Origin: Escarpia spicata | Lineage: Eukaryota; Annelida; Polychaeta; Sabellida; Siboglinidae | Assembly (NCBI GenBank): GCA_963995525.1 | Contig: OZ023206.1 | Span: forward strand, 3,777,350-3,841,349 | Length of the DNA: 64,000 nt | Direction: 5' to 3' | Shown: piece after piece, positions 634 to 37,852 of the stretch | Position numbering within the stretch: position 1 is the first letter of the stretch | How the letters are laid out: the number at the start of each line of letters is the position of its first letter | The notes under the pieces: generated by a model | Seen by the model: only the letters and a program-made list of their open reading frames with translations | Told to the model about the DNA's origin: nothing | The model's database searches: none | Program-made: the position numbers and the translations under genes

Positions 634-3600
634 CATGCCTCCGCCTATGGCGACTTCTGAGAGGTCATTTGTGATCGAGGCACACTGCGGCTCGAAGTCG
701 ACCTTCTGTGTGAAGACAATACCACGGTTTCTGATGACAACCACCTGAGGAGACAGACAGACAGTGTCAGTGACGGCAACAAGTATTCGCACACTATGTT
801 TTCAGATACCCTAAAAATCTACTGAAATTATTTTCTTTGTACTTTATGTTTTCAACACAGCTGATAATTTAGTTATTTACATATGTCCAAATACATAGTC
901 ACTTTGGAATTATTATCTTGGTGAGATGTGTTGCTGCATGTTTTGTGTTGTGATTTGAAACATAAATACCTAACATTGGTGTTGTCTATCTAAATACTTG
1001 AATTATTTTAGGGGGTCAATTCAACCATCCATAACTTAGCAACAACATGGCCAACACACTGCATGAACAACTAGATGGTTTCATTATAAACAACATGCCA
1101 ACACACTGCATGAACAACTAGATGGTTTCATTGTAAACAACATGCCAAAACACTGCATGAACAACTAGATGGTTTCATTATAAACAACATGCCAACACAC
1201 TGCATGAACAACTAGATGGTTTCATTGTAAACAACATGCCAAAACACTGCATGAACAACTAGATGGTTTCATTATAAACAACATGCCAACACACTGCATG
1301 AACAACTAGATGGTTTCATTGTAAACAACATGCCAAAACACTGCATGAACAACTAGATGGTTTCATTGTAAACAATGATAAGAAAATGGATAAATATGTA
1401 AAGATGTGAGGGATGCAGAAAGAGAAATAAGAAAGCAACGTACATGGTTGACACAGGCTACAACTACAAGTCCCCCAGGTGCTGCAGCCAACCCTCGGGG
1501 CTGGGAGGGCATCTTTACCCTGTCTCTGCAAACAGACAACCGTCACACATGACAATAAAACCCTCAGGGCTGGGAGGGCATCTTTACCCTGTCTCTGCAA
1601 ACAATCTGCAAACATGACAATAAAACTCTTGGGGCTGAGAGGGCATCTTTACCGTCTCTGAAAACAGACAACCCTCACACGACAATAAAACTCTTGGAGC
1701 TGAGAGGGCAACTTTACCCCGTCTCTGAAAACAGACAACCCTCACACATATAAAATGCCATAAACTACACATAAATCTAAAATAGTCATGAGTATATTTT
1801 CCAATCAAACCCCTTAAATGATAATATAACAACATCTAGATGAACAAACAAAGCAAAGTTCTTAATGCAGTGATAACATTGCCTTCACTGCCTTCATTAA
1901 TGCTTTGGCAACACAGAAATTAGCTGCACTGTTTCAAAGCAAACATTTGTTCAGCTTTTCAATAATGTATTTCAAATTTGTGTGTGTAATTATTGCAGTA
2001 CAAACTTGTGTGTCTCTCCAAAGCTATCACATGTATAACTTAGATCTAACAAAACTGCATCAAATAGATGCTACATCAGATCAAATGTACATTGTGCATA
2101 ATGCTCATCATTCACAGACATCAGTTGAAACGACTAAAGTGAAAGTGTTAAAATGAAAGTGGAACGATGTACTTGCCCATACTGCTTTGTCGCAACGTCT
2201 GCATACATGACGGAGTCATCCATGCCACATGTAATTAGAACACCGTCGACAACCACCATGTCCTGCACTTGATTCGAGTGACCTTTGCCCCCTACCAAAT
2301 CGTTCTCAGCTGTGTCGGCATTCCAGTGACCTTGGTTCAAGGTCAAGGACAACATCAAAAGACAATACAAGTTATAGCCCCACATGGAGCTTTGTATGTG
2401 TAGAAATCTAAGGTGTGTATTTGTACAGGACATGAATCTTGATGATATCCCAAATTCACATCCATCTGTAATGAGTGTAAGTGATGTGAAAGTATCCATG
2501 AATACACACTCCGTAGATGACACATGAGTAACACACAAGACCCGGGAACCACATATCCTTCCTGTGGGTATCCCTCTTGCCTGAGCCAGCCGTTTAGCAA
2601 GGATACAGATGTTTCCATCGGAGCTTCCTGTGAATACTGTTCCTCTGTCCTCAGTCACTGCCAGAGCCGTGATTGGCTTACTGTGGCCCTGTATACAAAC
2701 AACACATCCAAGTAGCCTCACACAAGCAACATGTACATGCTTTGATCTCATTCATGTGACAAGCAACATGTACATGCTTTGATCTCATTCATGTGACAAG
2801 CAACATGTACATGCTTTGATCTCATTCATGTGACAAGCAACATGTACATGCTTTGATCTCATTCATGTGACAAGCAACATGTACATGCTTTGATCTCATT
2901 CATGTGACAAGCAACATGTACATGCTTTGATCTCATTCATGTGACAAGCAACATGTACATGCTTTGATCTCATTCATGTGACAAGCAACATGTACATGCT
3001 TTGATCTCATTCATGTGACAAGCAACATGTACATGCTTTGATCTCATTCATGTGACAAGCAACATGTACATGCTTTGATCTCATTCATGTGACAAGCAAC
3101 ATGTACATGCTTTGATCTCATTCATGTGTCACTCTACAGTCCCTAGAGTTTGCTACTAACAGCTACGAGCAACGACTCGTTCCTAGCGGCTAGTACTTTG
3201 TATGTGAACATCATTTGATTCAAATTGAAAGCTAGTAAAAACTTTGAATTTATACTGCCACCGCAATATCCAATGGAATGGCTAAGTAGGTGCTATGGCT
3301 GTGTATATGGATTATATTATTTAGACACGTAAGAACTGACTCTAGCCATCTCCTTCTCTATATAGTCATTACAATCCCCAATATAACAATTTTGATCACT
3401 TTTCTGGAATACTCCTACCACATCAAGTCAGTGTAATCCCTGGAGTGACTCCCCCACTAAGACCCGAGTCATCCCTGGAGTGACTCCCCCATTAAGACCC
3501 GAGTCATCCGTGGAGTGACTCCCCCACTAAGACCCGAGTCATAGGAGGGACCCAAGAACTGACCTTCAGTATGCGTCTGGGGGTGTCAGGACAGGCACGG

Positions 3601-37852: not shown

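Follow-up and report, generated by a model that had tools for sequence, protein, structure and literature searches.

Minisatellites that cross exon-intron boundaries have been described in amphioxus, where such tandem repeats in the Adh3 and globin genes were termed mirages (PMC3087553), and troponin C and PGBD5 have been added to the list of host genes (PMC3902484). In the available parts of the first report, the mirages in the globin genes and Adh3 are stated not to disturb regular splicing, and those of Adh3 and BflGb6 to be unstable in length or copy number, either between alleles or somatically (PMC3087553). The original prediction for the DNA described here had named amphioxus Adh as its precedent and, as far as the accessible text of PMC3087553 and PMC3902484 extends, that precedent is real.

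Here we describe minisatellites of comparable structure in an annelid. The window, by which we mean the whole 64,000 bp stretch of Escarpia spicata DNA that was analyzed, contains six arrays that cross splice junctions in two genes, and it is probable that these are mirage-type minisatellites with a bias towards exon edges, in which the functional junction is the exon-adjacent copy. The novelty lies in the annelid host, the mirage itself being a kind of minisatellite already known from amphioxus. On this reading mirage minisatellites now extend beyond the cephalochordates, and the arrays of a single window are numerous enough for their sites of origin to be examined.

Gene models and junction-spanning arrays

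Four genes were modeled from homology and splice signals, with human sequences as reference proteins. We take these references to be accurate, the one for WDR1 matching PDB 9qfq over 606 residues and the one for CCNJ being presumably the human sequence; the name ferlin for the C-terminus encoded at 54341..62970 is likewise our assumption. The models comprise WDR1 (634..29835, minus strand; exons 1-13 of the model, the gene extending beyond the window), CCNJ (32497..37852, plus strand; 4 exons) and two control genes, RNASEH2A (43511..52172, plus strand; 8 exons) and the ferlin-like C-terminus (minus strand; 6 exons, in frame). All four have an open reading frame and together contain 56 junctions, each with one role only, donor or acceptor. 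Introns end in GT-AG throughout, except that the one following WDR1 exon 11 is GC-AG (GG/GCAAGT, at 2177), where the residues of Lamellibrachia satsuma at the join support the model.

The closest database matches come from L. satsuma, a member of the Siboglinidae (Annelida). The 461-residue WDR1 model aligns to its WDR1 without gaps and with 422 of 461 residues identical (best match 92%, next 69%), and at the last 11 of the 12 exon joins the flanking residues match save for substitutions. For RNASEH2A the best match is RNase H2 subunit A of L. satsuma at 90% identity, followed by matches at 62-64%, and Branchiostoma RNASEH2A stands at 59% among the matches listed. On these identities amphioxus was rejected as the host, and the DNA is probably from a siboglinid. 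When relatives of the locus were sought in genome contigs, the best 80 of 164 confirmed matches were prokaryote records only, at 21-31% identity, and none was found in viral contigs.

TRF returned 91 rows, 48 of which were kept (unit at least 10 bp, length at least 60 bp, score at least 80) and merged into 33 minisatellite arrays that occupy 24,380 of the 64,000 bp. For an earthworm genome, the accessible part of the published account gives 2.65% for minisatellites with units of 10-99 bp (PMC12130307). Six of the 33 arrays cross a junction, five in WDR1 and one in CCNJ, and none of the 25 junctions in the RNASEH2A and ferlin-like models is crossed by any TRF array.

The WDR1 arrays, all on the minus strand, lie at the donors of exon 5 (11672..12628; 55 bp unit, 27 exon bp; exon 12602-12782), exon 7 (9598..10094; 51-53 bp unit, 35 exon bp; exon 10060-10143) and exon 8 (4052..4352; 30 bp unit, 20 exon bp; exon 4333-4424), and at the acceptors of exon 9 (3691..4040; irregular 43 bp unit, 15 exon bp; exon 3564-3705) and exon 12 (1490..1749; 63-69 bp unit, 36 exon bp; exon 1444-1525). 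The remaining array is at the donor of CCNJ exon 3 (34918..35653, plus strand; 31-33 bp unit, 20 exon bp; exon 34778-34937). All six consist of tandem units of minisatellite size, in up to 22 copies, and every unit combines exon bases with the adjoining splice signal; TRF and the exon models place one end of each array 15-36 bp within the exon, and the remainder extends into the intron. The original prediction had listed these six arrays, and TRF recovers all of them, placed correctly on models that are in frame. Its exon numbers fit the models, its unit lengths agree to within 1-2 bp, and its claim of unlike units at both donors (four) and acceptors (two) is borne out. The homology-built models also keep all six arrays on their junctions, the point on which a revised exon map could have told against it. 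Because the units differ in length (55, 51-53, 30, 31-33, 43 and 63-69 bp), the six arrays are likely to have arisen separately.

Several features of individual arrays were noted. The intron between WDR1 exons 8 and 9 (3706-4332, 627 bp) is almost all array, with the donor-spanning array, 11 bp, and then the acceptor-spanning array. Translated by eye, the end of WDR1 exon 5 (12602-12628) reads FTNS and 11 array copies read FTIS, while among the last five copies (11672-11960) three read FTIN and two FTVN; L. satsuma has FTIN. It may be that the exonic copy has diverged and that the older form survives in distal copies. In the CCNJ array at 34918-35653 the consensus unit holds, by eye, an acceptor-like stretch (CTTTCTTGTACAG) with a donor-like site 11 bp on, and recursive splicing within this array is conceivable.

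Other repeats also occur in the window. Related short repeats (AGTGATCTCGGCC and GGCCGAGATCACT) were seen by eye at 40098-40324 and 43214-43348, in opposite orientation and about 3 kb apart, and are possibly the ends of a foldback element. The minus strand of 13800-14110 resembles, by eye, what we take to be a tRNA-derived SINE, with words like those of box A and box B.

Array positions relative to junctions and exon edges

Arrays cross junctions more often than a random placement predicts. When each array was collapsed to one unit and placed at random over 41,103 bp, with an exon overlap of up to 40 bp permitted, 1.46 of the 33 arrays were expected to span one of the 56 junctions, and six do (P = 0.0028). 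The excess was also found under other overlap thresholds (P = 5e-5 to 0.023), with the analysis confined to gene bodies (29 arrays, P = 0.0033) and with GC-matched placement (2.34 expected, P = 0.026). However, it is modest, and it fades when arrays are placed within their own intron or gap (3.48 expected, P = 0.094), a null that shrinks the WDR1 exon 8-9 intron to about 50 bp and leaves its two arrays almost no placement clear of a junction. In the half of the window from 38 kb on, which had not been used for the original prediction, none of 13 arrays spans a junction, with 0.53 expected. The claim that junctions are preferred seeds is partly supported: the excess of spanning arrays holds under the window-wide and GC-matched nulls, but under the own-intron null it is too weak to show a preference for the junction itself, and eleven further arrays end 6-74 bp from a junction without crossing it. 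Since these eleven are near and non-spanning, exon proximity fits the data better than junction seeding.

With a limit of 75 bp, which was picked once the distances were known, 17 of the 33 arrays span a junction or lie near one, against 5.08 expected (P = 1.4e-6), 5.71 with GC-matched placement (P = 7e-6) and 9.61 with placement in the own intron (P = 9e-4). The excess is weaker at other limits: 25, 50, 100, 150 and 200 bp gave counts of 9, 13, 17, 17 and 18 against 2.7, 3.9, 6.3, 8.4 and 10.2 expected (P = 0.004 at 200 bp), and near arrays taken alone gave P = 0.12 with a limit of 25 bp, 0.07 with 150 bp and 0.14 with 200 bp. Beyond 38 kb, again at 75 bp, 6 of 13 arrays are near without spanning (1.43 expected, P = 0.0015); counted as spanning or near, the figure is likewise 6 of 13, with 1.97 expected (P = 0.0078). 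The half on which the original prediction was based has 5 of 20 arrays near without spanning, against 2.19 expected, which is no clear excess (P = 0.06). Counted as seeds, 17 arrays lie no more than 100 bp from a junction, in a total of 5,536 non-exonic bp, and 16 lie farther away, in 31,672 bp (P = 9e-7). Part of this crowding arises because arrays are commoner in short introns (1.84 vs 0.55 per kb), where all of the near arrays sit; among the 15 arrays in gaps that measure 1,000 bp or more after collapsing one spans a junction and none is near, but just 0.30 and 0.62 were expected, and power is hence low. Taken together, the positions suggest that array birth or retention is favored where an exon edge is no farther than about 75-100 bp away.

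The closest approach without crossing is illustrated by the array beside RNASEH2A exon 6 (49923..50825, plus strand; 36 bp unit), which lies 6 bp from the last exon base; no homology between this array and the exon 6 junction was detected across the junction. Another non-spanning array, with a 28 bp unit (34545-34717), lies 61 bp ahead of the CCNJ exon 3 acceptor. By eye, the end of its unit looks like an acceptor, with a run rich in pyrimidines and CAG; the motif test does not place it among the acceptor-like units at p<0.1. The units of two more arrays, at 15018-15709 and 55387-56325, contain, by eye, good donor motifs antisense to the host gene (GTGAGT, GTAAGT), and both score high for donor-like motifs when either strand is considered (p = 0.02 and 0.03).

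Decoy splice sites

A search by similarity, which took in loose matches, yielded 53 decoy splice sites for examination, 41 donors and 12 acceptors. The authentic intronic hexamer is kept, by eye, in 29 of the 41 donor decoys, namely 11 of 16 at WDR1 exon 5, 7 of 8 at exon 7, 8 of 9 at exon 8 and 3 of 8 at CCNJ exon 3. With one or two downstream exons appended for translation, joining at a decoy is predicted to bring in a premature stop in all 53 cases, inside the array in 51 and later in two. Because every decoy examined would truncate the protein, the genes would work only via the exon-adjacent copy, and we infer from the sequence that splicing picks this copy, which is the first of the donors or the last of the acceptors. 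At its exon joins L. satsuma WDR1 has the residues that use of the exon-adjacent copy predicts. Dozens of sites in these genes resemble true splice sites and are apparently passed over. The arrays offer natural experiments on how a splice site is chosen; behind the donor of WDR1 exon 5 alone there are 16 similar sites.

Origin of the arrays and comparison with known systems

We propose that a short segment straddling an exon end would be duplicated in tandem, and that the resulting array would then expand into the intron. Minisatellites grow by slippage or unequal exchange, and the arrays described here may have grown in the same way. Minisatellite birth in this region would be of the ordinary kind but very active, with frequent tandem duplications that arise or survive more often near exon edges. 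A duplication that straddles the junction would be tolerated insofar as the exon-adjacent site stays put, and arrays reaching deeper into the exon would presumably be removed by selection. Neighboring sites with the same hexamer would be ignored by the spliceosome, for which exon definition and the order of transcription are candidate explanations. This proposal does not require the splice signal to act as the seed.

The same observations might reflect chance and density, that is, many minisatellites and short introns with neither junctions nor exon edges favored. The share of the window filled by arrays agrees with this, as do the 3.5 spanning arrays already expected under the own-intron null and the clustering of the spanning arrays, five of six in WDR1 and none from 38 kb on. 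However, the span-or-near excess at 75 bp survives four nulls (window, gene bodies, GC-matched and own intron, P ≤ 9e-4) and arrays close to junctions are found again beyond 38 kb; we regard chance as unlikely, albeit a serious contender. That donor or acceptor sequence itself provokes duplication is improbable in our judgment. Spanning arrays are in excess and occur at both kinds of site, two more arrays are possibly decayed spanning ones, and donor-like motifs show a weak excess in non-spanning units (combined p = 0.02), but the latter depends on 3 of 27 units at p<0.05, acceptor-like motifs show no excess (4 of 27 at p<0.05, combined p = 0.23), and the eleven near arrays lie off their junctions. 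In 9 of these 11, at least one other junction matches the unit as well as the array's own junction. The own junction ranks above all 27 others of its kind in two, with about 0.4 expected by chance, and these first-ranked alignments hint at decayed acceptor-spanning arrays at RNASEH2A exon 8 (51874..52000, plus strand; 42 bp unit, acceptor 52031; score 33 vs a maximum of 28 for the 27 others) and at WDR1 exon 8 (4467..9405, minus strand; AC-rich 61 bp unit, acceptor 4424; score 34 vs a maximum of 33). Decayed spanning copies hidden in all near arrays were rejected as a general account since only 2 of 11 beat all other junctions, and a splice motif as universal array seed was left unsupported by the motif test of the 27 non-spanning units.

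It is very improbable that the decoys are used on purpose, in unproductive splicing that tunes expression. The hexamers kept by donor decoys and the truncation predicted for every decoy would suit such a role, but homogenization preserves signals in uniform arrays without selection. Still less credence is due to the idea that the arrays are steps of intron gain, in which a single segment of exon origin was duplicated and gave rise to both intron ends. Gain of this kind has been proposed for amphioxus globins, according to the available part of PMC3087553, and the WDR1 exon 8-9 intron is nearly wholly array. However, in a comparison of donor and acceptor junctions of the same intron, which detects recent duplications only and lets old, decayed ones escape, 0 of 27 introns exceeded the 95th percentile of the null (maximum 19 vs 22), a result that opposes recent gain by tandem duplication. 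The two array units of the exon 8-9 intron are not detectably related either (score 12; shuffles mean 10.3, SD 2.1).

Mirage-type arrays biased towards exon edges remain our preferred reading, and they bear on the question of tandem-duplication hot spots at exon edges, a point relevant to how intron gain is modeled. A wider and tentative suggestion, about which we are doubtful, is that siboglinids have a genome-wide process at exon edges that makes or expands minisatellites within about 100 bp of junctions, and that many of their genes carry runs of full-strength decoys with the exon-adjacent site reliably chosen. If true, then together with amphioxus this would mean that the trait either evolved independently or is ancient in animals.

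Among annelids, minisatellites also occur in intron 1 of the earthworm metallothionein gene, for which the accessible text describes no junction-spanning arrays (PMC12783039), and the available portion of the Ridgeia genome paper mentions TRF and no such junction pattern (PMC9921365). A literature search covering largely papers outside subscription, some of them in part, found no mirage outside amphioxus. The dual-specific splice sites of UBC and VCX3A, as far as the source at hand describes them, resemble the tubeworm arrays in that tandem repeats have multiplied splice signals; there, introns within the repeat use one sequence as both donor and acceptor, whereas the tubeworm arrays are mainly intronic and hold copies of one junction kind (PMC10809524). 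Human internal tandem repeats in segmental duplications are likewise minisatellites at exon-intron boundaries, but in the part of that report available they change exons or create introns in recently duplicated genes, whereas the conserved tubeworm genes keep their frame (PMC2812944). The closest likeness is to the amphioxus mirages of Adh3, BflGb6, BflGb9, troponin C and PGBD5, whose units, 10-160 bp long in the accessible text, cross the exon-intron boundary at donors and acceptors alike, often with intact signals (PMC3087553, PMC3902484). In contrast to these, the tubeworm arrays have an annelid and not a cephalochordate host, five of them lie in one gene, and their copies number up to 22; moreover, their proximity to exons was assessed across every array and every junction in four genes.
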